Shown piece by piece: positions 10,287-51,831 of a DNA stretch of 64,000 nt. The notes beneath the pieces are model-generated. The model was not told the origin of the DNA. It searched no databases and saw nothing but the letters and a program-made list of their open reading frames with translations. The stretch lies in assembly GCA_030913385.1 (NCBI GenBank), contig CP133159.1, positions 4,505,001-4,569,000 of the forward strand, read 5' to 3'. A program made the position numbers and the translations under genes. This stretch comes from Cytophagaceae bacterium ABcell3 (GTDB taxonomy: Bacteria; Bacteroidota; Bacteroidia; Cytophagales; Cytophagaceae). How positions within the stretch are numbered: the stretch's first letter is position 1; every line of letters begins with the position of its first letter.

Positions 10287-10456
10287 GAGACACTATATTT
10301 TTGCAACTAACAAATTTAACGTTTTTTGCGGAATGTTACATCTTTTAATTCAAAAAAATCTTTATAAAGTTATTTTATACATAAAAAGCAGATACCCCGA
10401 TTGGTCTATACAGAAAACCTCAAAACCCTCAGATGGTTTGAAAAAAAATGATTTAG

Positions 10457-14408: not shown

Positions 14409-14441
14409 CCTTTTTTCGGGTCACCGTATTTTTCTGGGGAT

Positions 14442-21253: not shown

Positions 21254-21256
21254 AAA

Positions 21257-23860: not shown

Positions 23861-23868
23861 AGCTTTTA

Positions 23869-25020: not shown

Positions 25021-25118
25021 TGCTGTTCAAGTTTAGTAGTTCCACAATATTTCCCAATGGAACTTCACTTCAAAACTTTAAAATAAGAATCTGATTACTA
25101 ATACCATACGCCTTTGGT

Positions 25119-25394
25119 AAAATTTCAGCGAAGCATAACTTTGACCCATAACCTATGCAAGCTTTTAGACTTGCGTGTATAATACTCAGCAAACCTCGCT
25201 ATAATCAATTGCACTGCTATATATATACCCACCTTACAAATACATCACTACATTTGATGGTAGCAAAAGACGCAAAGTAAGGCTGGGAATACGTAACGCA
25301 AGCCACAACCTTGCATTAAGCTGGGTCTAGGATACTACGCAATCTTAGGCCAGGTTATATGGGAGAAGCTTAGCAGGACGCTAAAACCATAGGG
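25119..25394. repeat. Intergenic block: dispersed repeats R1 copy b and R2 copy b
   Basis: 25119-25168 repeats the R1 sequence (TTTCAGCGAAGCATAACTTT then GACCCATAACCTATGCAAGC) seen at 10600. 25260-25394 repeats R2 (AAAGACGCAAAGTAAGG, ACGCAAGCCACAACCTTGCA, AGGACGCTAA) seen at 19949. The rest of 25021-25420 shows no gene. Confidence 0.6.
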
Positions 25395-25420
25395 AGGGAA
25401 GGGAAAGTTAATTGCTATTT

Positions 25421-26344: not shown

Positions 26345-26412
26345 AAACAACTATATTAACGTGAAAAAATCCTATAATACTTTATTTTTGTACCTTATCC
26401 AGTCCTGTATTA

Positions 26413-26463
26413 CAATAACGCCCGCTGCAAATGGTAGGTCTAAGCGAGACGCAGGATCATAGG
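26413..26463. repeat. Dispersed repeat R2, partial copy c
   Basis: Holds CGCCCGCTGCAAATGGTAGG followed by TCTAAGCGAGACGC, matching the 3' part of R2a at 19949-20098. It lies between two genes of the accessory block. Confidence 0.55.
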
Positions 26464-26494
26464 GAAAATATTTACAAGTCAGCAAATTCAAATG

Positions 26495-27910
26495 TCAGTC
26501 TTTCTTTATCAAACTGGGTATTGTTTCAGGAATATAAATAGAGTTTATATAAATAGTTCCATCTGGGTACCTTCCTAAATACACTCCCCTAAAAAATTGA
26601 TCTACTTTAGGATCGCCTGTAGTCTCACCAGAAAACAGCATTCTTAATCCTTCATAATTCAACTTACTCAATGCAGAAACTAATGCTTTTATTTCATCGG
26701 AAGGATTCAAATTAACTCTCCAGGAATCTTCCCCTGCAGTTAAAAGAATAGAATTATGGCCCTTATATTTATATACCTTATAGCCACCTTCTTGCATAGA
26801 AAAATTTTCTCTTTCGTGAAAAAACATCAGTACATATAAATCACTTTTATCGTAAAACATAATTTTATAGTCAAAATCCATAGACGCTTCACGATCAAAG
26901 CTCCCCATAGCCTTCAACTCATTATTGGTATAACCATTGGACCCAAGGGAGTATTTCTTCATTTCTTGTAAATCATTAGAGAATATCCAGCTAGCAGCTG
27001 CAGCTTCTGGAGTTCCATCAAATTTTCGTTCCCTATAAGAACCGGCATATAATGTCCGTTTATCTGCTGTTTCGTAATTAAAAAACATTCCATCATTCTT
27101 AGACCAGTCAGTCGTTATTCCTATTTTATGGGGTATTTCATCAGAACTGACATTAAACTTCAGATTTGTTTGAAAATATTTGTCTTTGGGAATTGTTACA
27201 TTAGGAAGAGGACGCTCCTTACTATACTCATAAAGCATTCCGAAATTTTTAGTACCTGTAACATTAAACACCCCACCATAGAAGTAATAATCAAAAAACT
27301 CCGGCGATACTGTATTGAAATAAGAGACATTACCAAACAATAAATTTTTAAACCTTTTAGGCTCTAAATAAAAAAAATAAGAAAAGGCAGAAAGGTGCTT
27401 ATCATAAGAGATTTTCCATACATTTTTATTTTTCCCTAGCACTAACGTATACATCCTGTTTCCCATTTCTGGTGTATGGACATAGGATAGAAGAATACAA
27501 TATTCTTTATCATGCATTTTGAAATAAAACTCTGAAACAACTTTACAAACGTAATTTTCCCTAAACTCTTCTGAAGATTTATAATTAGAAAAATCTTCAG
27601 TTATACGGCCCTTCCCCTTTATTTCGCTTATTTCATCAATCCACTCATTGCTATTAGCAGCAAGCAAAGACTGCAAAACCAGATATGGAGACTCCAAATG
27701 TTTTTTATTAAAACTTTCATCATTAATAAGAGGCAAGTCAATGTCATCCTCACCATGGACTACATATTTAAACTCCTGAAAATACTCCACATATTTAAAA
27801 GGCCTTACCAAAGATTCAATATGGCCATTAACTAAAGTAGAATCTTCAAAGCTTTGCCCAAAAGATTGCACATTAGCAATAACAAATATAAAAACAAGAA
27901 GTCTGTTCAT
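26495..27910 (-). CDS. Secreted protein, intact paralogue of the IS-split gene
   Basis: 471 residues with a signal peptide (NRLLVFIFVIANVQSFGQ). Aligns over most of its length with the gene broken at 18348/12070, including LVLQSLLAANSNEWIDEISE, WKISYDKHLSAFSYFFYLEP and DLYVLMFFHEREN. No known domain is recognised; it is strand-rich with many aromatic residues. It lies 11 bp after a 55-residue frame and begins the series of larger accessory genes. Two diverged copies in one locus is the pattern of duplicated partner or immunity genes. Confidence 0.75.
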   Translation of the reverse strand: MNRLLVFIFVIANVQSFGQSFEDSTLVNGHIESLVRPFKYVEYFQEFKYVVHGEDDIDLPLINDESFNKKHLESPYLVLQSLLAANSNEWIDEISEIKGKGRITEDFSNYKSSEEFRENYVCKVVSEFYFKMHDKEYCILLSYVHTPEMGNRMYTLVLGKNKNVWKISYDKHLSAFSYFFYLEPKRFKNLLFGNVSYFNTVSPEFFDYYFYGGVFNVTGTKNFGMLYEYSKERPLPNVTIPKDKYFQTNLKFNVSSDEIPHKIGITTDWSKNDGMFFNYETADKRTLYAGSYRERKFDGTPEAAAASWIFSNDLQEMKKYSLGSNGYTNNELKAMGSFDREASMDFDYKIMFYDKSDLYVLMFFHERENFSMQEGGYKVYKYKGHNSILLTAGEDSWRVNLNPSDEIKALVSALSKLNYEGLRMLFSGETTGDPKVDQFFRGVYLGRYPDGTIYINSIYIPETIPSLIKKD

Positions 27911-28394: not shown

Positions 28395-31300
28395 ATGGAG
28401 AAACATTACTTTATCTTATTTGCCCTATTATGCATTAACATGGTTGCTTTTGGCCAGTGTGGCACAGAAACCTATACGGGCAGCTATTGTGCGGATCAAA
28501 ATGCTGAATATGAAATACAATCAACAGATCCGGATGCGCAATTCAGGTGGTTTGTAAGAGACAGTGATGGTAATCTAAACGATAATGGGGTTTCAAATGC
28601 ATTTGTTTCACCCGTACCATATCCTTCTGGCTCTGGCACAGTAGAGTATTACTACCAAAGAGAGTCTCCTGCTAGCGGAGGACCGTCAGCAACCCCTGTA
28701 CCTGATTTTGACAATGCTGGAGTCCTTGAAAACAACAATCTAGATTATGAAATCACTTATACCGCCACAAGTGATTTCAAGCTTAATAGCTTAACAGTTC
28801 CTATTTACGTAAATGGACTTCAGGCAAACAACTTATATCGAATCAAAATAGAGATTAATGGAAATTTTTCTACATGGTTTTATTTTAGAGGCAACGAGGT
28901 TACCAATACAAACCACAATAATGTTTACCTAATCACCATGCAGGTGATGGAGGCTGAAAATATAGCAGGAATCAGAGGGGAAGCCGGCACAAATACCATA
29001 CGCGTATTTTCTGCCGAAGATGGAATGGAAGAAGCAAATTCAAACGCTGTGGGTTTTCCATGGGTCCAAGAGAACTTTCTTGATGAGACCTATGACATAG
29101 ACCAGTTAACTCTTGAATTTGGCGAAAGCACGCAAGCAGTTCACAACAATACAAGAATCCCTGCGCTATTCGATTTAGATATCACTACCATATGTGATCG
29201 GGTTACAGCCATTGCCGAAGAAACCACCGAAGGATGCTGTACTCCTGTAGCCGATGCACCAGTATTAAATACAAGCACAGGTAGCAATATCGTAAGATCG
29301 CCTATTGACCCTGATTTTTATATATCCGCATCAGGAACAGCAGACTCTTATTATTACATATGGTACCTAAATGAACAGCCAATAGGAGGGAGTCAATATG
29401 AAGGTGTAGGGGTTAAAGAAATTCCTATAACTGAGCCAGGAAGATATAGAGTAAGAGTTGTTGAGGATGAATCACATGCACATAGGATAGCTTGTTATCA
29501 GGAACGCTCAATATGGATTCAGGAAAGAATCTTATTTGCAGAAGCAGATAAACAAGAAATTTGTCTGGGAGAAAGCGCCCGATTAAATGCAAGAGGCGCA
29601 ACTGACTCCATAAAATGGTCTCCAAGCACCTACCTACCTGACACTACTCTCTCAAATCCTGTTTTCATACCCGATACTCCAGGCGTATACCAATTCGAAG
29701 TTGAAGCAATTGTCCCATTGGGCAATCAGGTCATCAATGGCGATTTTGAACAAGGTAATGTGGGAGTAAATCCAAGTAGTTATTACCCAAACTATATAGA
29801 TCCGGCAGATGCAACTGAACCTGAAAATTGGGCAGACCCACCACGCCCTTTTTTAGATGTAGCAGAACCAGGAAGGTGGACAATAAACGAGTTTGTATTC
29901 TGGCCAGGGTTTAACTCATGGCAACCCTGCGCAGACCACACCACTGGGACAGGCAAGTTCATGTATGTAGATGGTGCTGCTGGTGGAAATGGGTATGACA
30001 GCTATTTTTGGAGTCAAGAAGTTTCGGTTGAACCTCATACTGAGTATGATTTTTCTGTATGGGCAATGAACTTTAATATGGCGGATGAGCCGACACCACT
30101 AGTCCAACTTTATATTAATGATGAGCCACTTTTGGCAGACCCTTATGAAGTAGATGGTGAGGTTTGCGAATGGAACAGGATTAACCAAGTATGGAACTCC
30201 GGCAATACTAGCGGTACAGTAAGGCTTAAAATAGCTACTGTCAGAAACACCCGAAGTGGCAATGATTTTGCCATTGACGACGTTAGTTTCGGAGCACCTG
30301 GCCCTCAAAAAGATACCATTTCTATTGTAGTTAAAGATTGCTTTGAAATAGAAGCCGAACAAGTAGGAACGTGTGATGGTGACTCTGTGATGGTTCAGGC
30401 TTATACTAACGGTGTATTTGCTGGCTGGAGAAATATAGCTACTGATGGTACCGAAGGAATAGGAAACCCTGAAAGTGCTACCACTATGGTTAATGCAGCC
30501 CTAGGCTACACACTTTTTGAAGCTACCGCTAAGTTTCCATTAGGAAACTTAATTGAAAATGGCGACTTTGAAGACCATGGGGGATTTGACTCCGATTTTG
30601 GATCAATGCAGTATGATCAAAACCAAGGCAATTATGCTGTTACTGACAACCCAAACTCCGTCAATAACAATTGGCTAAATATAGGAGATCGTACGAGTGA
30701 CTCAGGAAATATGTTTATCGCGCATGCTCGTTATGATAATAGAGTCATCTACAATACCGAAGTAGAAGTAGAAAATGGGGTGGAATACGGGTTTAGTGCA
30801 TGGTTTGCTAATATCCACCAGGAATTTTCCAGAGAAGAGCCTGATGAAAATTTTATGACTACTAACGTTGGGGTTTTTATTGATGGAGAATTAGTCGCTC
30901 CAGTTGTACTTCAAAGAGACAATGACTGGCATAACTTTTCTGCACTTTGGACTGCCACCACTACCGGAACAGTTGACATAGAGGTTAGGAACCTGCAAGC
31001 CCAACATAACCCAGAAAGGAATGGTAATATTTTCGCCATGGACGACCTTTCTTTTGGTCCAATTTCAGAAATTATCAAGAAGGATACTGTAGAAATTGAA
31101 TCTTGCTGCCCTCCTTTTGAAATTGTCACACACCCTGAGCCAACCAGTGCATGTGTAAGCAACAATGCTATTTTCACTGTTGAAGCAGCGTTAACTACTT
31201 CAAACCCTGCTCCTGAACAAACATATATTTACCAATGGGAAGTAAGTACTGACAATGGGGATACATGGGCAACCTTGGAAAACGGAGCTTCTTATTCAGG

Positions 31301-34300
31301 TGTTGATCAAGACACGTTAACTATTATTGATGCGATAGCGTCTATGGACGGTTACCTCTTCCGTACAATAGTACAAACAGATACCACCTGTCCTGAGATA
31401 ATTTCGGATGAAGCTGTACTTACTATTATAGACGAGGTATTGCCAGGAGAAATTGAAGTTGACGGGGATTCTGAAATCTGTGCCAACACGATACCTCCTG
31501 CTATTATAAATTACACAGACCCAACCGGCGGTGACCCTGGTGAGGAATTTTCTTTCTTATGGGAATACTCCATAGACGAAGGTGAAAATTGGACCATTAT
31601 TGACAATGAAGAAGCTGATGAATTTACGCCTACTGACCCCATTGATTCAGAAACATGGTTCAGAAGGATAGCCATCAATGGCCCTTGCGACTCAATCCCG
31701 TCAGATCCAGTCGTCATTACCATAAAACCTGAAGTTACCGGAGGTAGAATTTCAAGTTCACAAAGAACCTGCTACAATGAGGAACCTGAACTCCCATTGG
31801 TAAGCGAACAAGATGCCGATGGCGGGGACGGAACCTATGAGTACACCTGGCAGTCTGCCTCTCTGGACGATCCTGAGAACTGGACACCGGAAAGTGCTGC
31901 CGATGGCAGTGAACTTGTACTTGGTGCCCTTACCGAAAGCAGGATGTACAGACGTATGGTAGTGTCGGGTGACAACGAAGAGTGTAATACTGCTTATTCC
32001 GACACCGTCACTGTTACTGTTTATGAGATGACAGAACCAGGCACCATCGGTGACCCGGAGATCATTTGCTATAACGGAACGCCTTCGGAACTGATCAATG
32101 TTGACCTGCCTACGGAAGGCGATACCGAAGAGGTTGTACCTTATACATACCGCTGGTTATATGCAGAAGAAAGCGCACCAGGCTCTTGGGCCGCTGCCGG
32201 AGGAACGGGAGAGAATTTCCAGCCGGGGCAACTTACCGAAACCACTTGGTTTGTAAGGGAAGTTACTTCTGGCAACTGCCCTCCTGTAGAGTCTGACCCT
32301 ATAGAGATTGCTGTTACAGACCCACTGGAGCCGGGCGCTATCGGGGACGACACAACCATATGCGCAGGTTCTTCGCCTGGCACTATTGCGGAAATTGACC
32401 CTGCCGAAGGCGGTGGCGGAGGCTATACCTACGTTTGGGAAAAATCTGAGGACAACGGCCCATGGGAAGTGATAGATGACGAAACAGCTTTTGAATACAC
32501 CCCTGACAATGTCCTTGTCGATACAAGGTACAGAAGGATTGTGTCCACCGATGTTTGCGATGCAGAAGAGTCAAATATCGTCACAGTCTCTGTACTGCCA
32601 GGGCTTGACCCAGGAGAGATTGCCGATGACCAGGCCATCTGTTACGATACCCAGCCAGACGAGATCATTAGCGTGTCATCGGCACAGGGCGGTACAGGAG
32701 ATTTTGACTACTCTTGGCTCTATGCGACCGAAGACGATATCGCAAATGACGACTGGAACCCAATAACTGGCGAAGATGGCCTTACCTATACCCCGGACAA
32801 CCTTACCGAGTCTACCTACTTTGCCAGAATGGTAGTGTCCGGTACGGGCGACTGTAACACTTCTGTTACCATGCCTGTATTCATCGAGGTTTATGAAGAC
32901 TTGACCCCAGGTGCAATCGAAGAGGATCAAGAGATTTGTGAAGGCGATACACCAGAAGAAATAACAGAGTTGACCCCTGCAGAAGGTGGCGACGGTGACT
33001 ATACCTACACTTGGGAAATGACCGAAGACAATGGCACTACCTGGACGACAATAAGTGGCGCAACGACTGCAACCTATGCACCTGGTGCGCTTACCCAGAC
33101 CACTATCTACAGAAGGAACGTGACTTCGGGCGACTGTGGCACGGTGACTTCAAACATGGTAGAAATCGATGTGACCCCAAATGAAGCGGTAGACGTTTCG
33201 ATCAACAACCCGGGAAATGCTTGTATCGGGGAAAACATAACTTTCAATGCAACCCCTCAAAATGAAGGAAATTCCCCTGTATATGCCTGGTATGTCAATG
33301 ATACCGAAGTACCGGGGGAAACAGGATCCAGTTTCACTACCGATGACCTCAATGACGGGGACAGGGTAAAAGTAATCCTTACTTCTTCTATAGAATGTAC
33401 AACAAACAACCCGGCAGAGTCAAACGAAGAAGTGGCGGACATCACCACTTCAGTGATCCCTGCCGTAACGATCAACAACCCGGATGATATCTGTGAAGGT
33501 GAAGAAGTGAACTTTACGGCCAGCCCTTCTGGGGGCGGGAACACTCCTACCTACGAGTGGTTTGTAAACGGTGTCTCGCAAGGACCGGAAGATTTAGTTG
33601 CCACATGGTCGAGCGACCAGTTGCAAGATGGCGACGAAGTACACGTGGTCATGACCTCTAGCTCACAATGTATCGATGCGAGCGTTAGCGATGAAGCAAC
33701 CTCCAACACCCATGAGATGGAAGTGATCGAGAATGCGGTTGTAAGTGTGTCCATAAGCGCCAACCCTGCTTCAAGGGAGTGCGAAGGCACACCGGTCACC
33801 TTTACGGCCACTCCGACCAACGAAGGCACCTCCCCTACTTACCAATGGTATGTCAACGGGCAGCCAACAGGGATGAACAATCCGGTATTTGAAGCGGACG
33901 ACCTAGAAGACGGAGACGACGTATGGGTAGAGATAGAGTCGTCACTTAGATGTGTTGTGCAAAGGGATGCTGCCTCAAACATCCATGAGATGGAGGTCGA
34001 GCCGATAGTGGCCGTTTCTGTTTCCCTACAAGGGCCTTCAGGTACCATTTGCGAAGGCACACCGGCCACCTTTACCGCTACCCCGACCAATGGTGGCTCC
34101 AACCCTACATACCAGTGGCGTGTAGAAGGACAGTTGCAAGCCGAAACGAGCGACGAGTTCGAGAGCGACGAACTTGATGACGAGAATATAGTTGAGGTAA
34201 GGCTTACCTCAAGCGAAATGTGCCCGGACGGCACGGCCAGCGACAACTTCACGGCTAACATATTTACTAAGCCGGAAATAAATATCACCCCTAACCCTGT

Positions 34301-35249
34301 GGTGCTTTGCGAAGGACGCACTGAAGAACTAGACCTTGATGTAACCGAACAAGGAAGTCTTTATACATGGCATATCGATAATGATCCCCAAGGCCCACCA
34401 TCTACAGATAGCCGTTTCACGACGGCTGGGACTGGAACATATACTGTCCATATTGATTTCCCGTACGACGACTGCGAAACTTGGTCAAATCCGGCTGATG
34501 TTACCGTACTGCCTGAGCCTGACCCTGTGATCAACGAGGACAGTACGACTATTTGCGAAGACGAATATGCCACTTTCACTGTGGACGCCTCTGACAACAA
34601 CAACTCGATACAGTGGTACCTGAACGGTATGCCTATAGACGGTGAGACCGGCCATACCATACACATCAACGAGCCGGGCTTGCTAACGGTAGTAGAAGAC
34701 AACGGGACATGCGACACCAGGTCTACAGAAGTGCCGCTGGTAGTGATACCAAATCCTGTTCCGTATGCCGGGGAAGACGTGACGGTAATAGAAGGAGATC
34801 CGGTACAATTGGCGGCGACTGGCGGGGAAACATTTAGCTGGTACCCTGAAGACGGGCTGGACGACCCGAACATCCCTAACCCGGTTTTCATTTCGGAGGA
34901 CAACATTACCTATACGGTAACCGTGGCAAACGAGCACTGTGAAGGACAGGACGAAGTGAACATTACGGTCCAAAAGCCGATCGTAGTACGCAACTCGTTT
35001 ACGCCAAACGGTGACAACATCAACGACACTTGGTACATCGAAAACCTAGAAAGGTTCCCGGATGCAAGGATCGAGATATACAACAGGTGGGGAAGCCTTG
35101 TATGGTTGTCAGATGGCCCTGCCGAGTGGGACGGAACAAACTTCAGGAACAACGAAGACTTGCCGGTAGCCACTTATTACTATGTCATCATCCTTAATTC
35201 TGAAATATTTGACAAGCCATATACTGGCCATGTAACTATTGTGAGATAA
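28395..35249 (+). CDS. Giant Ig-repeat surface protein with type B T9SS (gliding-type) C-terminal domain
   Basis: 2284 residues. Signal peptide MEKHYFILFALLCINMVAFG. Residues ~440-650 and ~715-890 are two CBM4/9-like jelly-roll domains (each starts with NGDFE and ends with DDxSFG). From ~1018 six ~95-residue modules with the pattern G.I...EIC....P. follow, then from ~1595 five Ig-like modules (CIGENITFNATPQNEGNSP type). The last ~90 residues (NSFTPNGDNINDTWYIENL, FPDARIEIYNRWG, ATYYYVIIL) are the gliding-motility-associated C-terminal domain (CHU_C), a type B sorting signal for the type IX secretion system. Acidic throughout. It shares a long near-identical part with the next gene and probably forms part of a surface adhesin set. 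Confidence 0.9.
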   Translation: MEKHYFILFALLCINMVAFGQCGTETYTGSYCADQNAEYEIQSTDPDAQFRWFVRDSDGNLNDNGVSNAFVSPVPYPSGSGTVEYYYQRESPASGGPSATPVPDFDNAGVLENNNLDYEITYTATSDFKLNSLTVPIYVNGLQANNLYRIKIEINGNFSTWFYFRGNEVTNTNHNNVYLITMQVMEAENIAGIRGEAGTNTIRVFSAEDGMEEANSNAVGFPWVQENFLDETYDIDQLTLEFGESTQAVHNNTRIPALFDLDITTICDRVTAIAEETTEGCCTPVADAPVLNTSTGSNIVRSPIDPDFYISASGTADSYYYIWYLNEQPIGGSQYEGVGVKEIPITEPGRYRVRVVEDESHAHRIACYQERSIWIQERILFAEADKQEICLGESARLNARGATDSIKWSPSTYLPDTTLSNPVFIPDTPGVYQFEVEAIVPLGNQVINGDFEQGNVGVNPSSYYPNYIDPADATEPENWADPPRPFLDVAEPGRWTINEFVFWPGFNSWQPCADHTTGTGKFMYVDGAAGGNGYDSYFWSQEVSVEPHTEYDFSVWAMNFNMADEPTPLVQLYINDEPLLADPYEVDGEVCEWNRINQVWNSGNTSGTVRLKIATVRNTRSGNDFAIDDVSFGAPGPQKDTISIVVKDCFEIEAEQVGTCDGDSVMVQAYTNGVFAGWRNIATDGTEGIGNPESATTMVNAALGYTLFEATAKFPLGNLIENGDFEDHGGFDSDFGSMQYDQNQGNYAVTDNPNSVNNNWLNIGDRTSDSGNMFIAHARYDNRVIYNTEVEVENGVEYGFSAWFANIHQEFSREEPDENFMTTNVGVFIDGELVAPVVLQRDNDWHNFSALWTATTTGTVDIEVRNLQAQHNPERNGNIFAMDDLSFGPISEIIKKDTVEIESCCPPFEIVTHPEPTSACVSNNAIFTVEAALTTSNPAPEQTYIYQWEVSTDNGDTWATLENGASYSGVDQDTLTIIDAIASMDGYLFRTIVQTDTTCPEIISDEAVLTIIDEVLPGEIEVDGDSEICANTIPPAIINYTDPTGGDPGEEFSFLWEYSIDEGENWTIIDNEEADEFTPTDPIDSETWFRRIAINGPCDSIPSDPVVITIKPEVTGGRISSSQRTCYNEEPELPLVSEQDADGGDGTYEYTWQSASLDDPENWTPESAADGSELVLGALTESRMYRRMVVSGDNEECNTAYSDTVTVTVYEMTEPGTIGDPEIICYNGTPSELINVDLPTEGDTEEVVPYTYRWLYAEESAPGSWAAAGGTGENFQPGQLTETTWFVREVTSGNCPPVESDPIEIAVTDPLEPGAIGDDTTICAGSSPGTIAEIDPAEGGGGGYTYVWEKSEDNGPWEVIDDETAFEYTPDNVLVDTRYRRIVSTDVCDAEESNIVTVSVLPGLDPGEIADDQAICYDTQPDEIISVSSAQGGTGDFDYSWLYATEDDIANDDWNPITGEDGLTYTPDNLTESTYFARMVVSGTGDCNTSVTMPVFIEVYEDLTPGAIEEDQEICEGDTPEEITELTPAEGGDGDYTYTWEMTEDNGTTWTTISGATTATYAPGALTQTTIYRRNVTSGDCGTVTSNMVEIDVTPNEAVDVSINNPGNACIGENITFNATPQNEGNSPVYAWYVNDTEVPGETGSSFTTDDLNDGDRVKVILTSSIECTTNNPAESNEEVADITTSVIPAVTINNPDDICEGEEVNFTASPSGGGNTPTYEWFVNGVSQGPEDLVATWSSDQLQDGDEVHVVMTSSSQCIDASVSDEATSNTHEMEVIENAVVSVSISANPASRECEGTPVTFTATPTNEGTSPTYQWYVNGQPTGMNNPVFEADDLEDGDDVWVEIESSLRCVVQRDAASNIHEMEVEPIVAVSVSLQGPSGTICEGTPATFTATPTNGGSNPTYQWRVEGQLQAETSDEFESDELDDENIVEVRLTSSEMCPDGTASDNFTANIFTKPEINITPNPVVLCEGRTEELDLDVTEQGSLYTWHIDNDPQGPPSTDSRFTTAGTGTYTVHIDFPYDDCETWSNPADVTVLPEPDPVINEDSTTICEDEYATFTVDASDNNNSIQWYLNGMPIDGETGHTIHINEPGLLTVVEDNGTCDTRSTEVPLVVIPNPVPYAGEDVTVIEGDPVQLAATGGETFSWYPEDGLDDPNIPNPVFISEDNITYTVTVANEHCEGQDEVNITVQKPIVVRNSFTPNGDNINDTWYIENLERFPDARIEIYNRWGSLVWLSDGPAEWDGTNFRNNEDLPVATYYYVIILNSEIFDKPYTGHVTIVR
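31793..32818 (+). repeat. ~1.03-kb block apparently identical to 39007-40032
   Basis: From CCCATTGGTAAGCGAACAAG onward I find no base difference from the copy 7214 bp downstream until a C/T change at 32819. The block covers about three and a half Ig-like modules. Beyond it the two genes stay highly similar to their stops, with scattered substitutions and one swapped module. Silent sites are also unchanged, so the copies were homogenised recently. Confidence 0.85.
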
Positions 35250-35295
35250 TTATAAATTTTCATTTCGATCCTAAATACCCATTAATATAACCAAA

Positions 35296-35343
35296 CTAGT
35301 GCATTCAATGGTCAACCATAGAGAAACCATTTGAATGCACTAG
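35296..35343. terminator. Long hairpin between the two giant genes
   Basis: CTAGTGCATTCA(A)ATGGT pairs with its complement across a ~14-base loop: 17 paired bases and one bulged base. It starts 46 bp after the stop codon. It could terminate or protect the upstream transcript. The following bases to 35617 are AT-rich with no gene seen. Confidence 0.55.
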
Positions 35344-35617
35344 ACCTATTTTCGTCACACCTTAACCTCTACAATACAAACGGCATGGATTATAATATAT
35401 AAGCAGCTACAAATCAACAACAAACTACCTACCCAACAATAATTAAAGATTATTAAAGTTATTCTACCAAAATAAAAAAGCACTACCTTTTTCACATTTA
35501 AAGCCAAAAAAGTTCAATTTTTATGGTTACATATCTACTTTTAGATATATTAACCAGTAAAAAAAGAATAAAGCTCAACGTGAAAGCCTCACAGCTCTGA
35601 AATATACTTTAGATTCC

Positions 35618-38600
35618 ATGAAAATTAACAGGCGGTTCAATTACATCAATTTAACAAAGGCCTTCTTGGTTGCCTTTTGCTCTATATTAATCAATGAAAG
35701 CTATGCTCAGAATTTGAGGATTTCTGGGGGAAATACTGTATCAACAGCTTTATGTGCTGACGGCAAAATGTTTACATGGGGATTAAATACAGGAGGGCAG
35801 CTAGGGCATGATGAGTCAAATGCAGACGGATACACTTTGGCACCTGAAGAAGTTGAATTTCCAGCAAACGACCCTTATTTTGATTATCTTAACAGTGGTA
35901 TTCGCTTAAGGAATGTAGATGCAGGTTCTGGCGCCCACTTTATTGCTTCAGATTGTGAAGGAGGTGTATGGTCATGGGGCAACAATAACCATGGACAAAC
36001 AGGCACCAACAGTCCGGACGAAAGGCTAAACCGGCCACAACGAGTAAGAAGAGGACAACATCCTGGTGGCGGAGATATACATCCTAGTCTTGAAGATTAT
36101 TTAGTTGATGTGGCTTTTATTGCAGGAGGCAACAACTCCAGCTATGTAGTAACCAATACGGGAGAAGTTTTGGCCTGGGGGGAAAACGCAGATGGACAAT
36201 TAGGCGATGGAACTTTTGATGACTCTCCCACCCCCCGCTATGTATTAACAGGTCCAGGAGAAAGGCTCCAAAACGTTATAGAAGTAGGAGCTGGAGACGA
36301 AACAGCATATGCTTTAACGGCGGATGGTATTGTATATTCATGGGGTAATTATGGAAATGCTTACCTTGGACGCCCAGATAACAATAATGAATATGCAAGA
36401 CCTGTATTAAGGGACGGAGAACCATTAAGTAATATTGTTTCATTAAATGCCGGAGACGTAATGAGTTTTGCCCTTGATGACGAAGGTTTTGTTTGGGCTT
36501 GGGGCGACCATGGCTGGGGAGGGTCTGCTGGAACTGGTACCCCTACCAATCAACATGAAGAGCCTAAAAGAGTAGTAGCTGGCGAATGGGGTACAACCGA
36601 AGGCACTGCAGGATTTGGACAAACATATTTAAGAGCCAGGTCTATATCAGGTGGACAGGGCTTTGGTACAGCAGTAACTATTGATGGAATACCTGTTGCT
36701 TGGGGGAATGATGGAGCCTGTGGAGGAGCTGCTGCTGGTGGAAACCTAGGAAATGGAGGCGGAGGCGACTCCCCTGCCCCTGTAATAGTTAGAACTGACG
36801 CCAACTCATACCACACCAATGTAATTCAAATATCTGCTGCTGACACTTGGGGGTATTATATTACAGACAACAACGATATTTACGCATGGGGAAATAATGC
36901 ATTAGGCCAACTAGGTATCAACAGTACCGAATGTCAAGACTATGCAGTACCCTTAACCTTACCAGATTGTGGACTGCCAGCCCCGCTCCCTGAAGCACGG
37001 ATTTCTCCGGCAGGATTATATGTTTGTCCGCTAAACTGGGATGGCACCATGCTTAACTCAGGCTTTTCAGTAGGCCCAGACCTAATTGACGATTATACCA
37101 TTACATGGTTTAGAAACAGTCAGCCTTTAACCAATCCCTCTACCGATCCGTTAACATATGAAGCTACAGAGCCAGGCATTTATTCGGTAAATATTGAATA
37201 TATAGGTAATGACACACCATGCGAACCTTATGAAACAGCTACTGACAACATAGAAATTTTAATTTACGAGAGAGAGTTTGAAGTACCTGAAGACTTAACT
37301 TTCTGCGGTGACACGATAACTGCACATATTGAATCAGGATATGGACTTTACGAATGGTATACAGAAGAGATTGGAGGAGAATTAATAGGTACCAGCACAA
37401 GAACAAATGAGGTTAGATTCCCGAAAAGTTCAGTCACTGAAGTCTCTGGCACTGAACACACTGTATATGTAGAAGAAGTAGGTTTGGGAAATGGCAATGT
37501 AGGTCCTGTTTCCTCTTCATGCGATTCCGAAGATTTGCATGGAACCACAACATCTAATACCATGATAAGGGTTTTTGAAGGCTCTATTACCATAGATACT
37601 ATATCAATTTTTCATGAAGGCGAATGGCAAGGCTCTTCTACAAATTATGATTGGCAGGTCTGTATATATGGTTCAAAATTAGATCCGAACGGAAACGAAG
37701 TATCAGATGAAGATAATATTATTGCTTGTGGAGAAGTCGTAACACTACCCTCACATGATGACCAAGATGAATATCTCGAATTAAAAATCCCGGTCAATAT
37801 CACCCTTGAAGGGGCCAGAGTAGGTCGTGAATACTGGATAGGATTTGGAGACAATACCACCGGGATCAGATCTCAATACTTCACATGCCCCCCAGGACCT
37901 GCCATAGATGATATTGACAACAAAGATTACATACACCTTATACGAGCCGATCAGCATGGCAATCATCAAAGTGACGTTGAATGGGGACAATTTGCTAATA
38001 TCCAGTTTACAGCAAATCAGGGTTTTTGTGAAAGAGTGCCTGTAACTATAACAGAAGAATGTCCATGCTTACCACCTAATGAAGTTTCAGTAACCCCAAG
38101 CGACACCCTAATATTTTGCGAAGGTGAAGCTCTAAACATTGAAGCTACTGTAGATACCACAGGTTTAAGCCCGGTAAATGATGCATATTACTTCACTTGG
38201 TACTTAGACGAAGATCAGCTTGGCGCACCTTCTGTAGATTATGAAGATATTGATATTGCCGAAATCACTGTTGACCAAAGCGGACTTTACAGAATTAGAG
38301 TGGAAGACGGTACTACCGGAAACTCTAGCTGCTACTTAGAAGACTCTGTTTACGTCATTGTCGACGAACCTGTAGACCCGGGATCTATTGTTGATGAAGA
38401 ACAAGTCATCTGTGTTGGCACAATACCAGATGCCCTACTTTCTGACGAACCTGCATCAGGCGGAAACGACTCAGGAGACTTCGATTACCAGTGGCAAAGC
38501 TCCCTAACCGGGGACGAGGAAGATTTTGATGACATTGCCGGTGCAGATGAGGAAGACTTTACACCTGATGCACTAGAAGAAAGTACTTATTTTAGAAGAA

Positions 38601-41600
38601 TGGCAACTTCAGGGGAGTGCCCTCCAACCTATACAGATCCAGTCCTTGTAACTGTTATAGATGAAGTTGACCCTGGTGAGATCGGAGAAGACGTAGAAAT
38701 TTGTATCAATACAATTCCTCCAACAATTGAAGAAACCGTTGCTGCAAGCGGCGGAGATGAGGATTTTGTTTATCAGTGGGAGGTGTCAATAGACGGAGAC
38801 ACTTGGGATGAAATAGATGGTGAAACAAGTATAGATTATTCTCCGTCTGACCCAATAAGTGAAGAGACTTATTATAGAAGAAGAGTTTCAGCAGGACCAT
38901 GCGACTCTGTTTACTCTAACATTGTTACTATATCTATTACCCCAGTACTGACAGGTGGCGCCATCAGCCAAGACCAAAGAACCTGCTACGATGTAGAACC
39001 TGACTTCCCATTGGTAAGCGAACAAGATGCCGATGGCGGGGACGGAACCTATGAGTACACCTGGCAGTCTGCCTCTCTGGACGATCCTGAGAACTGGACA
39101 CCGGAAAGTGCTGCCGATGGCAGTGAACTTGTACTTGGTGCCCTTACCGAAAGCAGGATGTACAGACGTATGGTAGTGTCGGGTGACAACGAAGAGTGTA
39201 ATACTGCTTATTCCGACACCGTCACTGTTACTGTTTATGAGATGACAGAACCAGGCACCATCGGTGACCCGGAGATCATTTGCTATAACGGAACGCCTTC
39301 GGAACTGATCAATGTTGACCTGCCTACGGAAGGCGATACCGAAGAGGTTGTACCTTATACATACCGCTGGTTATATGCAGAAGAAAGCGCACCAGGCTCT
39401 TGGGCCGCTGCCGGAGGAACGGGAGAGAATTTCCAGCCGGGGCAACTTACCGAAACCACTTGGTTTGTAAGGGAAGTTACTTCTGGCAACTGCCCTCCTG
39501 TAGAGTCTGACCCTATAGAGATTGCTGTTACAGACCCACTGGAGCCGGGCGCTATCGGGGACGACACAACCATATGCGCAGGTTCTTCGCCTGGCACTAT
39601 TGCGGAAATTGACCCTGCCGAAGGCGGTGGCGGAGGCTATACCTACGTTTGGGAAAAATCTGAGGACAACGGCCCATGGGAAGTGATAGATGACGAAACA
39701 GCTTTTGAATACACCCCTGACAATGTCCTTGTCGATACAAGGTACAGAAGGATTGTGTCCACCGATGTTTGCGATGCAGAAGAGTCAAATATCGTCACAG
39801 TCTCTGTACTGCCAGGGCTTGACCCAGGAGAGATTGCCGATGACCAGGCCATCTGTTACGATACCCAGCCAGACGAGATCATTAGCGTGTCATCGGCACA
39901 GGGCGGTACAGGAGATTTTGACTACTCTTGGCTCTATGCGACCGAAGACGATATCGCAAATGACGACTGGAACCCAATAACTGGCGAAGATGGCCTTACC
40001 TATACCCCGGACAACCTTACCGAGTCTACCTATTTTGCCAGAATGGTAGTGTCCGGTACGGGCGACTGTAACACTTCTGTTACCATGCCTGTATTCATCG
40101 AGGTATATGAAGACTTGACCCCTGGCGCTATCGAAGATGACCAGGAAATTTGCGAGGACGAAACTCCTGAGCCGATCACAGAGCTTACGCCTGCTGCAGG
40201 AGGAGACGGTGACTATGCCTACACTTGGGAAATGACAGAAGACAATGGCACTACCTGGACAACAATAAGTGGCGCAACGACTGCAACCTATGCACCTGGC
40301 GCGCTTACCCAGACCACTATCTACAGAAGGAACGTGACTTCGGGCGACTGTGGCACGGTAACATCGAACATGGTAGAAATCGATGTGACCCCAAATGAAG
40401 CGGTAGACGTTTCAATCACCAACCCAGGGAATACGTGTATCGGGGAAAACATGACTTTCAATGCAACCCCTCAAAATGAAGGAAATTCCCCTGTATATGC
40501 CTGGTATGTCAATGATACCGAAGTACCGGGGGGAACAGGATCCAGTTTCACTACCGATGACCTCAATGACGGGGACAGGGTAAAAGTGATACTTACTTCT
40601 TCTATAGAATGTACAACAAACAACCCGGCAGAGTCAAACGAAGAAGTGGCGGACATCACCACTTCAGTGATCCCTGCCGTAACGATCAACAACCCGGATG
40701 ATATCTGTGAAGGTGAAGAAGTGAACTTTACGGCCAACCCTTCTGGTGGCGGGAACACTCCTACCTACGAGTGGTTTGTAAACGGTGTATCGCAAGGACC
40801 GGAAGACTTAGTTGCCACATGGTCAAGCGACCAGTTGCAAGATGGAGACGAGGTACACGTGGTCATGACCTCTAGCTCACAATGTATCGATGCGAGCGTT
40901 AGCGATGAAGCAACCTCCAACACCCATGAGATGGAAGTGATCGAGAATGCGGTTGTAAGTGTGTCCATAAGCGCCAACCCTGCTTCAAGGGAGTGCGAAG
41001 GCACACCGGTCACCTTTACGGCCACTCCGACCAACGAAGGCACCTCCCCTACTTACCAATGGTATGTCAACGGGCAGCCAACAGGGATGAACAATCCGGT
41101 ATTTGAAGCGGACGACCTAGAAGACGAAGACGAGGTATGGGTAGAGATGGAGTCGTCGCTTAGATGTGTCGTGCAAAGGGATGCTGCCTCAAACATCCAT
41201 GAGATGGAAGTCGAGCCGATAGTACCCGTTTCTGTTTCCCTACAAGGGCCTTCAGGAACCATTTGCGAAGGTGCAGAAGCCACCTTTACCGCTACCCCGA
41301 CCAATGGCGGGTCAAACCCTACATACCAGTGGTTTGTAGAAGGACAGTTGCAAGCCGAAACAAGCGACGTATTTGTGAGCGACGAGCTCAGTGACGATGA
41401 TGAAGTTGAGGTAAGGCTTACCTCAAGCGAAATGTGCCCGGACGGCACGGCCAGCGACAACTTCACTGCCGACATATTTACCATGCCAGATATCAATGTC
41501 ACCCCAACACCTGTGGTGATGTGCGAAGGAAGTTCTCAGCTATTGACACCTGACGTTAACGAATCAGGAAGTACCTATGAATGGTTTATCGACGGTACAA

Positions 41601-42454
41601 GCACAGGACATAACTCAAGGACTTACATGGCTTCTGAGACTGGAACACATACTGTATGGGTAGACTTCCCGCACGGATGCGGCAAGGAGTCGGAGCCGGC
41701 AGAGGTGACCGTACTGCCTGAGCCTGACCCTGTGATCAACGAAGACAGCACGACCATTTGTGAAGACGAATATGCTACTTTCACTGTGGACGCCTCTGAC
41801 AACAACAACTCGATACAGTGGTACCTGAACGGTATGCCTATAGACGGTGAGACCGGCCATACCATACATATCAACGAGCCGGGCTTGCTGACGGTAGTCG
41901 AAGACAACGGGACATGCAACACTAGGTCTACAGAAGTGCCGCTGGTAGTGATACCAAACCCTGTTCCATATGCCGGGGAAGACGTGACGGTAATAGAAGG
42001 GGATCCGGTACAACTGACGGCAACTGGCGGGGAAACATTTAGCTGGTACCCTGAAGACGGGCTGGACGACCCGAACATCCCTAACCCGGTTTTCATTTCG
42101 GAAGACAACATTACCTATACGGTAACGGTGGCAAACGAGCACTGTGAGGGACAGGACGAAGTGAACATTACGGTCCAAAAGCCGATCGTGGTACGCAACT
42201 CGTTCACGCCAAACGGTGACAACATAAACGACACTTGGTACATCGAGAACCTGGAAAGGTTCCCGGACGCAAGGATCGAGATATACAACAGGTGGGGTAG
42301 TCTTGTATGGTTGTCAGATGGCCCTGCCGAGTGGGACGGTACAAACTTCAGGAACAACGAAGATTTGCCGGTGGCCACTTATTACTATGTCATCATCCTT
42401 AATTCTGAAATATTTGACAAGCCATATACTGGCCATGTAACTATTGTGAGATAA
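35618..42454 (+). CDS. Giant RCC1/Ig-repeat surface protein with type B T9SS C-terminal domain
   Basis: 2278 residues. Signal peptide up to LINESYAQ. Residues ~35-450 form an RCC1-type (regulator of chromosome condensation/BLIP-II) beta-propeller with repeated blades such as MFTWGLNTGGQLGHD, VWSWGNNNHGQTGTN, VLAWGENADGQLGDG and IYAWGNNALGQLGIN. A middle region (~500-820) is unassigned. The remaining part is Ig-like modules and a CHU_C domain almost identical to those of the preceding gene. Same export route and probably the same surface partner, but a different binding head. Followed 20 bp later by the PorP/SprF gene. Confidence 0.9.
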   Translation: MKINRRFNYINLTKAFLVAFCSILINESYAQNLRISGGNTVSTALCADGKMFTWGLNTGGQLGHDESNADGYTLAPEEVEFPANDPYFDYLNSGIRLRNVDAGSGAHFIASDCEGGVWSWGNNNHGQTGTNSPDERLNRPQRVRRGQHPGGGDIHPSLEDYLVDVAFIAGGNNSSYVVTNTGEVLAWGENADGQLGDGTFDDSPTPRYVLTGPGERLQNVIEVGAGDETAYALTADGIVYSWGNYGNAYLGRPDNNNEYARPVLRDGEPLSNIVSLNAGDVMSFALDDEGFVWAWGDHGWGGSAGTGTPTNQHEEPKRVVAGEWGTTEGTAGFGQTYLRARSISGGQGFGTAVTIDGIPVAWGNDGACGGAAAGGNLGNGGGGDSPAPVIVRTDANSYHTNVIQISAADTWGYYITDNNDIYAWGNNALGQLGINSTECQDYAVPLTLPDCGLPAPLPEARISPAGLYVCPLNWDGTMLNSGFSVGPDLIDDYTITWFRNSQPLTNPSTDPLTYEATEPGIYSVNIEYIGNDTPCEPYETATDNIEILIYEREFEVPEDLTFCGDTITAHIESGYGLYEWYTEEIGGELIGTSTRTNEVRFPKSSVTEVSGTEHTVYVEEVGLGNGNVGPVSSSCDSEDLHGTTTSNTMIRVFEGSITIDTISIFHEGEWQGSSTNYDWQVCIYGSKLDPNGNEVSDEDNIIACGEVVTLPSHDDQDEYLELKIPVNITLEGARVGREYWIGFGDNTTGIRSQYFTCPPGPAIDDIDNKDYIHLIRADQHGNHQSDVEWGQFANIQFTANQGFCERVPVTITEECPCLPPNEVSVTPSDTLIFCEGEALNIEATVDTTGLSPVNDAYYFTWYLDEDQLGAPSVDYEDIDIAEITVDQSGLYRIRVEDGTTGNSSCYLEDSVYVIVDEPVDPGSIVDEEQVICVGTIPDALLSDEPASGGNDSGDFDYQWQSSLTGDEEDFDDIAGADEEDFTPDALEESTYFRRMATSGECPPTYTDPVLVTVIDEVDPGEIGEDVEICINTIPPTIEETVAASGGDEDFVYQWEVSIDGDTWDEIDGETSIDYSPSDPISEETYYRRRVSAGPCDSVYSNIVTISITPVLTGGAISQDQRTCYDVEPDFPLVSEQDADGGDGTYEYTWQSASLDDPENWTPESAADGSELVLGALTESRMYRRMVVSGDNEECNTAYSDTVTVTVYEMTEPGTIGDPEIICYNGTPSELINVDLPTEGDTEEVVPYTYRWLYAEESAPGSWAAAGGTGENFQPGQLTETTWFVREVTSGNCPPVESDPIEIAVTDPLEPGAIGDDTTICAGSSPGTIAEIDPAEGGGGGYTYVWEKSEDNGPWEVIDDETAFEYTPDNVLVDTRYRRIVSTDVCDAEESNIVTVSVLPGLDPGEIADDQAICYDTQPDEIISVSSAQGGTGDFDYSWLYATEDDIANDDWNPITGEDGLTYTPDNLTESTYFARMVVSGTGDCNTSVTMPVFIEVYEDLTPGAIEDDQEICEDETPEPITELTPAAGGDGDYAYTWEMTEDNGTTWTTISGATTATYAPGALTQTTIYRRNVTSGDCGTVTSNMVEIDVTPNEAVDVSITNPGNTCIGENMTFNATPQNEGNSPVYAWYVNDTEVPGGTGSSFTTDDLNDGDRVKVILTSSIECTTNNPAESNEEVADITTSVIPAVTINNPDDICEGEEVNFTANPSGGGNTPTYEWFVNGVSQGPEDLVATWSSDQLQDGDEVHVVMTSSSQCIDASVSDEATSNTHEMEVIENAVVSVSISANPASRECEGTPVTFTATPTNEGTSPTYQWYVNGQPTGMNNPVFEADDLEDEDEVWVEMESSLRCVVQRDAASNIHEMEVEPIVPVSVSLQGPSGTICEGAEATFTATPTNGGSNPTYQWFVEGQLQAETSDVFVSDELSDDDEVEVRLTSSEMCPDGTASDNFTADIFTMPDINVTPTPVVMCEGSSQLLTPDVNESGSTYEWFIDGTSTGHNSRTYMASETGTHTVWVDFPHGCGKESEPAEVTVLPEPDPVINEDSTTICEDEYATFTVDASDNNNSIQWYLNGMPIDGETGHTIHINEPGLLTVVEDNGTCNTRSTEVPLVVIPNPVPYAGEDVTVIEGDPVQLTATGGETFSWYPEDGLDDPNIPNPVFISEDNITYTVTVANEHCEGQDEVNITVQKPIVVRNSFTPNGDNINDTWYIENLERFPDARIEIYNRWGSLVWLSDGPAEWDGTNFRNNEDLPVATYYYVIILNSEIFDKPYTGHVTIVR
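39007..40032 (+). repeat. Second copy of the ~1.03-kb block (see 31793-32818)
   Basis: Matches 31793-32818 at a constant offset of 7214 bp. The left boundary is sharp: upstream of CCCATTGG the two genes differ (GAACCTGAACT versus GAACCTGACTT, then increasing divergence). Confidence 0.85.
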
Positions 42455-42474
42455 TTATAAGACAAAGATAAAAC

Positions 42475-43434
42475 ATGAAAAAACTACTAATATTCTTTTT
42501 CCTGCAATTATCTGTAGTTGCAGTATTTGGCCAGCAAAGGCCCCAGTACTCCCAGTATATGGTGAACCCGTTCCTGCTCAACCCCGCGGTGGCAGGAACG
42601 GAAGACTATGCTGATTTCAGGGCCGGTTACAGAAATCAATGGATCGGGTTTCCAGGCGCACCGACCACTATCTACCTTAGTGGACATGCCCCCATAGGAA
42701 AGGGAATGGTACAGAACAACAGGACAAGGGTCAAAAAGAACGGGTTCCATGCTGTAGGTGGTGTCGTGTCAAACGATGTCACAGGGCCAAGCAGCAGGTT
42801 GACAATTACCGCTTCCTACGCTTACCACCTAAAAATTGCCCCTAAAACTTTTATCTCCATGGGTATATCGGGTGGAATGCAGCAATATATGTTGGACGAG
42901 TCACAACTGACCACTGTAGTGGACAACGACCCGATGATTCACGGGATTTCAAATACCTCGTTGGCAGATGTAAGCACAGGCTTCTGGTTGTACAACCCTA
43001 ACTATTTTGTGGGCGGTTCCATTAGCCAGATATTCAACCCTGTTATTTTCAACCACCATACCAATGAGATGGAAAACCATGGAAGGCTTAACCACCATTA
43101 CTTCATAACTTCCGGTGTAAGGATCCCATTGGATCATGACTGGTCGTTGGTGCCATCGGTACTACTTAAAGGCGTCACCCCTGCCCCACTATCTTTTGAC
43201 GTAAACTGCAAGATCAGGTACCAAAACATTGCATGGGGCGGTATCTCCTACAGACGTACAGATGCAGTGGCAGCCATGGTAGGCTTTATATTGAACGACA
43301 GGTTTGACATTAGTTATTCTTATGACTTCATCACCTCCAATATCAGGCACTATACAGGAGGTAGCCACGAAATTGTGATAGGTTATAGAATGCCACTCGC
43401 TCCAGGACTTGTATGTCCTTCTAAGTATTGGTAA
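42475..43434 (+). CDS. PorP/SprF family type IX secretion system membrane protein
   Basis: 319 residues. Signal peptide (KKLLIFFFLQLSVVAVFGQ) followed by the family hallmark RPQYSQYMVNPFLLNPAVAG and RAGYRNQWIGFPGAPTTIYL; the C-terminus alternates hydrophobic strands as in an outer-membrane barrel. PorP/SprF proteins act with surface proteins that carry type B C-terminal domains, and in known cases sit directly downstream of them, as here (20-bp gap). It probably anchors or helps export one or both giant proteins. Confidence 0.95.
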   Translation: MKKLLIFFFLQLSVVAVFGQQRPQYSQYMVNPFLLNPAVAGTEDYADFRAGYRNQWIGFPGAPTTIYLSGHAPIGKGMVQNNRTRVKKNGFHAVGGVVSNDVTGPSSRLTITASYAYHLKIAPKTFISMGISGGMQQYMLDESQLTTVVDNDPMIHGISNTSLADVSTGFWLYNPNYFVGGSISQIFNPVIFNHHTNEMENHGRLNHHYFITSGVRIPLDHDWSLVPSVLLKGVTPAPLSFDVNCKIRYQNIAWGGISYRRTDAVAAMVGFILNDRFDISYSYDFITSNIRHYTGGSHEIVIGYRMPLAPGLVCPSKYW

Positions 43435-43450
43435 GAAACAACTAGCTCAA

Positions 43451-43909
43451 ATGAAACATTTGTTTACTATAATTGCTCCTTTATTAATCTTTAGTACTGC
43501 CTTTATTCCTCAAGAAAAATCAATAAACGAAGGCATCAAATTCCATACAAGCTCGTGGGAAGAGGTACAGGAATTAGCATCCAAAGAGGGCAAACCAATT
43601 TTTATTGATTTGTATGCTTCATGGTGTGGCGTGTGCCGATCTCTTAAAGAAAAAACTTTTAGTGATGCAAAAGCTGCGGAGTTTTTTAACACCAACTATA
43701 TAAATTATGCGGTAGACGGGGAAAGTAAAGAAGGCAAAAAACTATTAGAAAAGTATATACTCACCGACGAGGAAGATCCACGGATGAAATTCCGACAATA
43801 TCCACAATTACTAATTTTAGATCAAGCCGGAAATCTTGTTCAAAAACACAATGGATTTCTTTCTGCAGAAGAACTTATTGAATTGGGAAATATAAAAAAT
43901 AGTCATTAG
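43451..43909 (+). CDS. Exported thioredoxin-like protein
   Basis: 152 residues from the ATG at 43451, where a signal peptide begins (MKHLFTIIAPLLIFSTAF). A longer frame from 43409 overlaps the PorP gene and is rejected. The thioredoxin fold has the redox motif CGVC in IDLYASWCGVCRSLKEKTF and the cis-Pro region FRQYPQLLILDQAGN. Probably a periplasmic disulphide enzyme. Only 16 bp after the PorP/SprF stop, so it may help folding of the exported proteins, whose Ig-like modules each carry Cys; this is inference. Confidence 0.85.
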   Translation: MKHLFTIIAPLLIFSTAFIPQEKSINEGIKFHTSSWEEVQELASKEGKPIFIDLYASWCGVCRSLKEKTFSDAKAAEFFNTNYINYAVDGESKEGKKLLEKYILTDEEDPRMKFRQYPQLLILDQAGNLVQKHNGFLSAEELIELGNIKNSH

Positions 43910-44068: not shown

Positions 44069-44175
44069 GAACCTGAAATATGCATTAGAACTTTCTATTG
44101 CGTGGCATAATAACTTCAAATCAGACGCTTTGCTCACATTTGGTTTTTAACCGTAGAACTACTATGCTTTGCACT
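44069..44175. repeat. Dispersed inverted-repeat element, copy B (truncated)
   Basis: Begins CCTGAAATATGCATTAGAAC, contains AATAACTTCAAATCAGACGC and TTTTTAACCGTAGAACTACT and ends near ATGCTTTGCA. The left half matches copy C; the right terminus is missing. The gene-free stretch 44176-44411 downstream shows no further structure I can name. Confidence 0.7.
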
Positions 44176-51481: not shown

Positions 51482-51665
51482 TTCACAATAAGGTTAAGAT
51501 TTAGAATCTTAGAAGTAAATAAATAGGAACAACAAGAAAACTTGCAGCAAAAAGACTAAGGCCGGAGAGCAGAAAACTCAGGAGGTAAATCAGGACATAA
51601 AACAGTCCCGGAAAAGCAGAATATTCAGATTGTAAAGGCAATATAATTCCACAACTTCACAAGAA

Positions 51666-51830: not shown

Positions 51831-51831
51831 C

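Follow-up and report, generated by a model that had tools for sequence, protein, structure and literature searches.

Giant surface proteins with a type B C-terminal domain (CTD), encoded directly upstream of a gene of the PorP/SprF family, are known from the SprB/SprF pair of Flavobacterium johnsoniae. Type B CTDs require cognate shuttles, with crosstalk when the CTDs are similar (PMC12618676); SprB is reported to bind SprF, and a PorP-like partner may serve as the anchor of each type B protein (PMC9143113). The closest published parallel that we found to the locus described below is an inversion of about 1.9 Mb around the terminus in Flavobacterium psychrophilum, seen by optical mapping, with 10-kb inverted repeats that carry adhesin, PorP/SprF and outer membrane protein genes (PMC5808330). 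The present locus lies in Cytophagaceae bacterium ABcell3 (GenBank assembly GCA_030913385.1; one contig, CP133159.1, of 5.115 Mb), of which positions 4,505,001-4,569,000 were analysed (the window, 64,000 nucleotides). Two genes in this window, A and B, encode giant surface proteins of the type IX secretion system (T9SS), and B is directly followed by a porP/sprF-family gene (Table 1). Unlike in SprB/SprF, several different N-terminal heads are carried here on one stalk. We propose that recombination probably homogenises this stalk, sometimes together with the shuttle gene, and leaves the heads free or swaps them, with different heads sharing one T9SS export and anchoring partner.

The stalks of A and B are 94.05% identical over 3,496 alignment columns in a self-BLAST (A 31761-35255 against B 38975-42460), in agreement with an original prediction, made from the window alone, of about 3.4 kb of near-identity between two surface proteins of about 2.28 kilo-residues each, which were found where predicted. 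The approximately 1.03 kb said to lack silent differences proved to be an exact block of 1,027 bp. Silent differences are distributed as a mosaic rather than uniformly, with counts of 0, 0, 0, 0, 0, 0, 6, 15, 7, 2, 0, 6, 0, 2, 7 and 8 in successive 50-codon windows from residue 1162 of A. In total 168 of 1163 stalk codons differ, and the longest identical run is 341 codons, as compared to at most 87 in 20,000 shuffles of the same codons; this is far beyond chance, and uniform divergence can be dismissed. The first 960-1100 residues or so reach only 26% identity in a forced alignment, and the heads are thus unrelated, as had been predicted: B carries an RCC1 beta-propeller, and A carries a different head that we call A-like. 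Homology between A and a further paralogue, E, begins at nt 3028 of A, to the left of the start of the A-B tract at nt 3367, which places the edge of the A-B tract inside homologous sequence.

A stalk DNA search of the same genome identified a third near-copy, locus C, at 2.96 Mb, and at least five paralogues (A to E) are present. C (2330 residues, RCC1 head, own porP) lies 1.58 Mb from B on the opposite strand, D (2286 residues, RCC1 head, own porP) adjoins C, and E (2263 residues, A-like head) lies at 3.43 Mb without a porP directly after it. The strongest exchange of B is with C, in a tract that includes an identical stretch which begins in the stalk and covers about the first half of the shuttle gene (Table 1). 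At fourfold-degenerate sites, B and C differ at 145 of 256 positions in their homologous heads and at 0 of 631 in the stalk; at the protein level the heads are 55% identical and the last 250 residues 100%. The corresponding values for B and the RCC1-headed giant of G011, from another genus, are 58% and 47%, so that the head of B is roughly as distant from that of C as from that of G011. The heads of B and D share 67% identity. "Twin" genes and "recent duplication" are therefore not the best way to describe A and B. All five heads stand on uninterrupted open reading frames (ORFs) in this one genome of the species, which was also the only genome of its genus among those searched; the whole analysis was made from assembled sequence. 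A search for a common leader upstream of A to E found none, save for one 44-bp match between B and D inside the coding start.

Further heads on a shared stalk, which had been suggested as something to look for in relatives, were found. In G012, which belongs to another genus of the same family (single contig of 4,433,218 bp), five giant genes (Q1-Q5) stand in tandem with one porP closing the array. A sixth (Q6), at a distance of about 0.25-0.3 Mb and in the opposite orientation, has a porP to itself, and these two giant-linked porP genes are 99.5% identical. With the exception of Q4, the giants have 2,255 bp or more of their 3' ends in common at 98.9-99.9% in all ten pairs of the remaining five, and the length of the shared tract varies by pair from 2,255 to 4,611 bp. 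Their heads are of several kinds, i.e. RCC1 in Q1 and Q6, A-like in Q3, and GH8-related with DUF11 in Q4 and Q5, and the head of Q2 has no Pfam match. Q1 and Q6 differ at 116 of 172 fourfold sites in the head versus 3 of 974 in the stalk, and the stalks of Q2 and Q3 differ at 1 of 613. The head of Q5 has counterparts of 78-80% identity in three species of a further genus, g6, and its end is only 62-64% identical to the ends of those same proteins, as against 99-100% to Q1, Q2, Q3 and Q6. Leader matches among Q1-Q4 probably derive from the 3' end of the preceding gene. In draft genome G007, giant genes are cut off by the ends of three contigs (C29, C2 and C33), and C2 opens with 1,871 bp that are 95% identical to part of C33.

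Head and end identities were compared among 19 giants; G006b, G006c, the G007 loci, G012c and G018b were left out as contig-cut, split, shorter or differently ended, L075 was not used, and L076-L077 (G016) entered only the comparison of pairs within genomes. In the stalk tree (last 330 residues of 19 giants), the five genes of the ABcell3 genome, with both head classes, form one clade (support 100/100), and five of the six Q genes form another (100/99). In the tree of A-like heads, E groups with Q3 and with the giants of G015 and G018 of g6 (100/100), and a clade of the A and E heads is rejected in the approximately unbiased (AU) test (p = 0.00019), as is a clade of the RCC1 heads of Q1 and Q6 (p = 0.008). 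Silent-site identity within genomes, together with separate head histories, fits concerted evolution by gene conversion, except that the heads of B, C and D form a clade. A-like heads also occur on proteins of 1064-1131 residues with a type A sorting domain (six of six scanned). In their tree, a single branch separates the five long type B forms from the six type A forms, suggesting that changes of sorting class have not been frequent there. Short RCC1-type proteins carry type A (seven of nine) or type B domains (two of nine; nine of ten loci were scanned, L079 being left out), which brings the shorter proteins of relatives (L068-L073, L078, L080-L087) to 13 of 15 with type A and 2 of 15 with type B.

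Whole-head differences at a single locus could be identified in genus g6. Within the stretches fetched, each of the four species has the porP gene downstream and the same 16 genes upstream, one of which is split in G018. The locus carries an RCC1 head in G011 and G005, and G015 and G018 have an unrelated A-like one there. All four share a homologous stalk, with amino acid identities over more than 1,200 residues of 80% for G011-G018 and 76% for G005-G015. By their flanking proteins, G005 is closest to G015 (14 of 16) and G011 to G018 (11 of 17, with one tie), so that head type crosses the apparent relationship of the species. Between G005 and G015, which have different heads, upstream DNA homology extends to within 10 bp of the listed starts; other mixed-head pairs have shorter or broken upstream matches at the same place. 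The g6 locus is best read as a probable replacement of the whole head, with leader and stalk kept. The predicted head exchange thus finds its counterpart at a syntenic locus of relatives, and not in A or B themselves. In Pontibacter (15 of 17 loci; L022 and L031 were dropped since the PorP start fell outside the position filter), pairs of loci with different head classes are 36-39% identical in the head, 89-98% in the stalk end and 94-99% in PorP. For example, P. lucknowensis (L018) and Pontibacter sp. FD36 (L021) share 99% of PorP, 96% of the stalk end and 37% of the head, and the flanking proteins of L017 are 81-98% (mostly 89-98%) identical to those of L014, L018, L019 and L021. The Pontibacter heads may be diverged alleles rather than unrelated heads, and this case is supporting, not decisive.

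The prediction of one export and anchoring system fits the type B sorting domains of both proteins and the shuttle gene after B, though no such gene stands directly after A. PF11751 matches also directly follow C and D, and none directly follows A or E; that A uses the shuttle of B is the simplest guess. Among ten loci of the family, PorP distance correlates with stalk-end distance (Mantel r = 0.973, p = 0.0001) versus r = 0.019 (p = 0.37) with head distance, and among the 15 Pontibacter loci the values are 0.938 and 0.275, respectively. The weight of these figures lies in the contrast between stalk end and head. The tail of the shuttle after B, ...VCPSKYW (window 43405-43434), has one Cys, and differs in this (CPSKYW) from that of SprF, which is described as carrying Cys-Xaa-Cys (PMC12635249). 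Single-Cys tails (CPSKYW, CPSNFW, CPSHFW, CPEKFW, CPQW[IV]W) occur in the ten family PorPs, in Flexithrix and in the 15 Pontibacter PorPs listed, and no Cys was found in the shuttle tails of L026, L029, L030 and L032-L035. Flexithrix dorotheae (L011), which has a giant gene before PorP, was rejected as a relative of the whole protein, as its listed matches to the 19 giants are only C-terminal (from residue 1489 of 2011), with no head match. A thioredoxin-like gene (window 43409-43909) directly follows the porP of B, with an in-frame ATG at 43451 just past the end of the B-C tract; no real counterpart was found near the porP of C.

We envisage a giant surface protein with a distal N-terminal head, a long stalk of immunoglobulin (Ig)-like repeats and a C-terminal sorting domain that would be handled by the PorP/SprF-family shuttle. 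Homologous recombination between loci of one genome (gene conversion, and possibly sometimes crossover) has very likely evened out the stalk and sorting domain, in some cases with the shuttle, and the heads have meanwhile kept their old, separate histories. Homology arms may be provided by the conserved stalk, in relatives together with the conserved leader, and converted ends could be kept alike by selection for compatibility with a common shuttle, by which several heads would be displayed via one shuttle type. Recombination is very likely the cause of the stalk identity, and the original suggestion of gene conversion, or of other homologous recombination, agrees with the separate histories of heads and stalks, with the A-B edge inside homology to E, and with recurrence in other genera. 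Shuttle fit as the reason for homogenisation is plausible and not the whole story, as exemplified by a pair in G053 (see below).

Several observations weigh against this explanation or restrict its reach. Three complete genomes from other families were surveyed on both strands by comparing the 3' regions at every type B match (16, 13 and 15 loci); the only near-identical pair was in G053, and G022 and G027 had none. The G053 pair (1913 and 2228 residues, opposite strands) shares 3,001 bp at 95.5%, and a third gene in that genome has about 3.0-3.9 kb in common at 76%. Directly after either gene of the pair there is no same-strand ORF of at least 180 residues (the next ones are on the other strand), which implies that a linked shuttle is unnecessary for homogenisation. 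D and E of the ABcell3 genome, Q4 of G012 and the pairs G011/G011b, G005/G005b and G015/G015b are not homogenised, and G016 (L076-L077) has no such pair; homogenisation is not universal. The RCC1 heads of B, C and D form one clade (100/99), and a clade of B and C heads is not rejected (p = 0.104), so that the head split of these three may be younger than the genus. The programs moreover warned of long branches for G006 and Q4 in the stalk tree, in which G006 meets the ABcell3 clade, and flagged an odd letter make-up for A and E (A-like head tree) and for C. Finally, the shuttle of A and E is a guess as neither has an adjacent porP, and the correlation between PorP and stalk end is inflated by shared ancestry and by tracts that contain porP.

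A recent segmental duplication, in which a complete 3' cassette of stalk and optionally porP was copied and fused to unrelated heads without conversion of existing stalks, would agree with the shared G053 tract, which stops 2 bp after the stop codon, and with several G012 pairs that begin at the same left position (Q1 nt 4849, Q2 nt 5011). We nevertheless consider it unlikely, as homology among B, C and D spans the whole protein and D has a diverged stalk of its own, as stalk homology between A and E extends to the left of the A-B tract, and as tract lengths in G012 differ by pair and the A-B stalk is a mosaic. Overwriting of both B and C (or of the Q genes) by the same foreign allele through horizontal transfer appears slightly less probable still. 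Transfer between lineages likely does occur, given that whole-head differences at one locus cross the relationship of congeneric species, but stalks of both head classes cluster by genome, and repeated double imports in several lineages are a less simple account than local conversion.

An origin of the identical blocks in assembly collapse or mis-joined repeats might be considered, since identical repeats of 4.4 kb are hard for short reads and the giant genes of G007 run off their contigs. This is nonetheless very improbable: both copies are present with different edges, the pattern is found in single-contig genomes of three genera, and optical mapping bore out the inversion of F. psychrophilum that is flanked by inverted adhesin-PorP/SprF repeats (PMC5808330). 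Strong purifying selection at the nucleotide level itself, for an RNA or an overlapping gene, has practically no chance of being the cause; no point was found in its favour, the window has no Rfam match at gathering scores, and it is contradicted by the homologous stalks of congeneric g6 species, which differ at 0.37-0.54 of fourfold sites.

Local recombination may have consequences for the chromosome as a whole. Twenty 20-kb samples place one switch of GC skew at 0.26-0.53 Mb and another at 3.07-3.35 Mb, and A/B (4.54 Mb, plus strand) and C/D (2.96 Mb, minus strand) lie in inverted orientation on opposite sides of a skew switch. A crossover between B and C could invert 1.58 Mb across the switch near 3.2 Mb. 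The dnaA gene, at 1.48 Mb, is away from any skew switch, and origin and terminus are thus approximate. In F. psychrophilum, too, an adhesin end plus porP forms an inverted repeat astride a skew switch; there the inversion itself was observed and the repeats also hold a gene for an outer membrane protein, with no discussion of head diversity in the text consulted (PMC5808330), whereas here the heads are spared and the arrangement is known from one assembly. More tentatively, and with less than even confidence, stalk, sorting domain and shuttle might together be a recombination platform, uniform within each genome and providing homology arms for head exchange among paralogues, strains and species of Bacteroidota, with inverted copies that flip megabase segments and swap heads between loci.

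Some resemblance extends to more distant systems. Rhs and CDI polymorphic proteins have a long conserved core with an exchangeable end and recombination in the core; the variable end is C-terminal and toxic there, and N-terminal, with no toxin implied, here. The gingipain/HagA proteins of Porphyromonas gingivalis are T9SS surface proteins with modular adhesin domains, shared repeats, recombination and allelic exchange, but their domains are others, catalytic and inner adhesin modules vary rather than a whole N-terminal head on a homogenised stalk, and the text consulted names no shuttle gene (PMC5266723). Ag43-type autotransporter adhesins likewise have a variable passenger, a common export module and several alleles per genome, but they are unrelated proteins of type V secretion (PMC6668479). 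The component phenomena are known; their combination, homogenisation of stalk plus shuttle with free heads, is not described in the papers listed by the literature searches (titles and starts of abstracts, few subscription journals covered). Specific pairs of type B CTD and shuttle are known, and a further question is what decides which adhesins can share one shuttle. Because these genomes naturally combine various heads with a single homogenised stalk, and differ in whole heads at one locus, shuttle compatibility and head function become directly testable. Its recurrence in relatives suggests that the arrangement is a natural means of altering display without changing the route of the protein to the surface. 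Such loci can also break short-read assemblies and could seed chromosome inversions.

Table 1. Features of the A/B locus (positions in the window)
Feature	Positions	Strand	Evidence or remark
Gene A, T9SS type B surface protein, A-like head and shared stalk	28395..35249	+	complete ORF, 2284 aa
Head of A, two related domains of ~210 aa (NGDFE...FA[IM]DD.SFG)	29685..31088	+	jelly-roll-like by inspection only
Stalk of A, common to B and C at 94%	31761..35255	+	self-BLAST
Identical A-B block, A side, 1,027 bp without any difference	31792..32818	+	exact match and permutation
Type B C-terminal sorting domain of A, residues 2198-2284	34986..35246	+	TIGR04131
Gene B, T9SS type B surface protein, RCC1 head and shared stalk	35618..42454	+	complete ORF, 2278 aa
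RCC1 beta-propeller head of B, residues 31-438	35708..36931	+	Pfam; PDB sequence matches
Tract common to B and locus C, 5,310 bp at 99.47%	38141..43450	+	C at 2.96 Mb, opposite strand
B-C identical tract, 4,369 bp, stalk to first half of porP/sprF	38576..42944	+	exact match
Identical A-B block, B side	39006..40032	+	exact match to A 31792-32818
Type B C-terminal sorting domain of B, residues 2192-2278	42191..42451	+	TIGR04131
Shuttle gene of the porP/sprF family (319 aa), 20 bp downstream of B and partly in B-C identical tract	42475..43434	+	PF11751 E=1.5e-79, TIGR03519

The two heads had been described as CBM-like (carbohydrate-binding module) in A and RCC1 in B, of which the latter is clear (PF25390, E=8e-63; PF00415, E=4e-30), with HERC2, UVR8 and RCC1 as the nearest solved structures by sequence. 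RCC1 repeats (PF00415) are above cut-off in B, C, D, Q1 and Q6. The two domains of head A are 38% identical to each other, and their best matches are below the Pfam cut-offs (CBM_4_9, E=0.008; MAM, E=0.014). The CBM4/9 family (PF02018) scored 17.0 bits against a cut-off of 25.9, and matched only one of 11 head-A relatives at E up to 0.1; we have not adopted a carbohydrate-binding label, as this sub-threshold match is its sole basis. Sequence searches of the PDB with head A gave nothing significant, and an AlphaFold model of one of its domains, with the other domain as the only further alignment row, was not used (predicted local distance difference test score 35). The heads may bind different ligands and might in this way set binding specificity, as originally suggested.

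Both proteins score 63 bits with TIGR04131 (cut-off 35) and 78 bits with CHU_C (cut-off 27; residues 2198-2281 in A), match the CHU_C-associated Ig-like family Ig_7, and have N-termini that look hydrophobic by eye. The genome holds 31 type B sorting domains over cut-off (35 matches altogether) and 26 PorP/SprF matches, one of them short. Outside the window, near position 1639510 of the same contig (G000:C1), an open frame of 10,366 codons contains a type B sorting domain and is immediately followed by a PorP/SprF match.

In the remainder of the window, an IS66-family transposase (PF03050) is found at 16020-17474, 11 kb before gene A. The region at 12158-12892 plus 12920-14449, which we take to resemble an IstB/IstA insertion sequence, has an ORF with a weak DnaA-type match that is found with equal score at four genome places. 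The genes of an AT-rich block (20129-27910, 30-35% GC) are on the minus strand and rarely match Pfam families (M15 peptidase-like, PQQ propeller and SH3 being the matches), and a repeat pair lies at 19941-20044 and 25255-25353 in the same region. Finally, a dispersed repeat of about 172 bp occurs at 51663-51848, 44069-44173 and 10439-10588, and at no fewer than 40 places in the genome with 78-100% identity (40 scored of 222 candidates); one copy folds better than 200 shuffles (z = -3.67).

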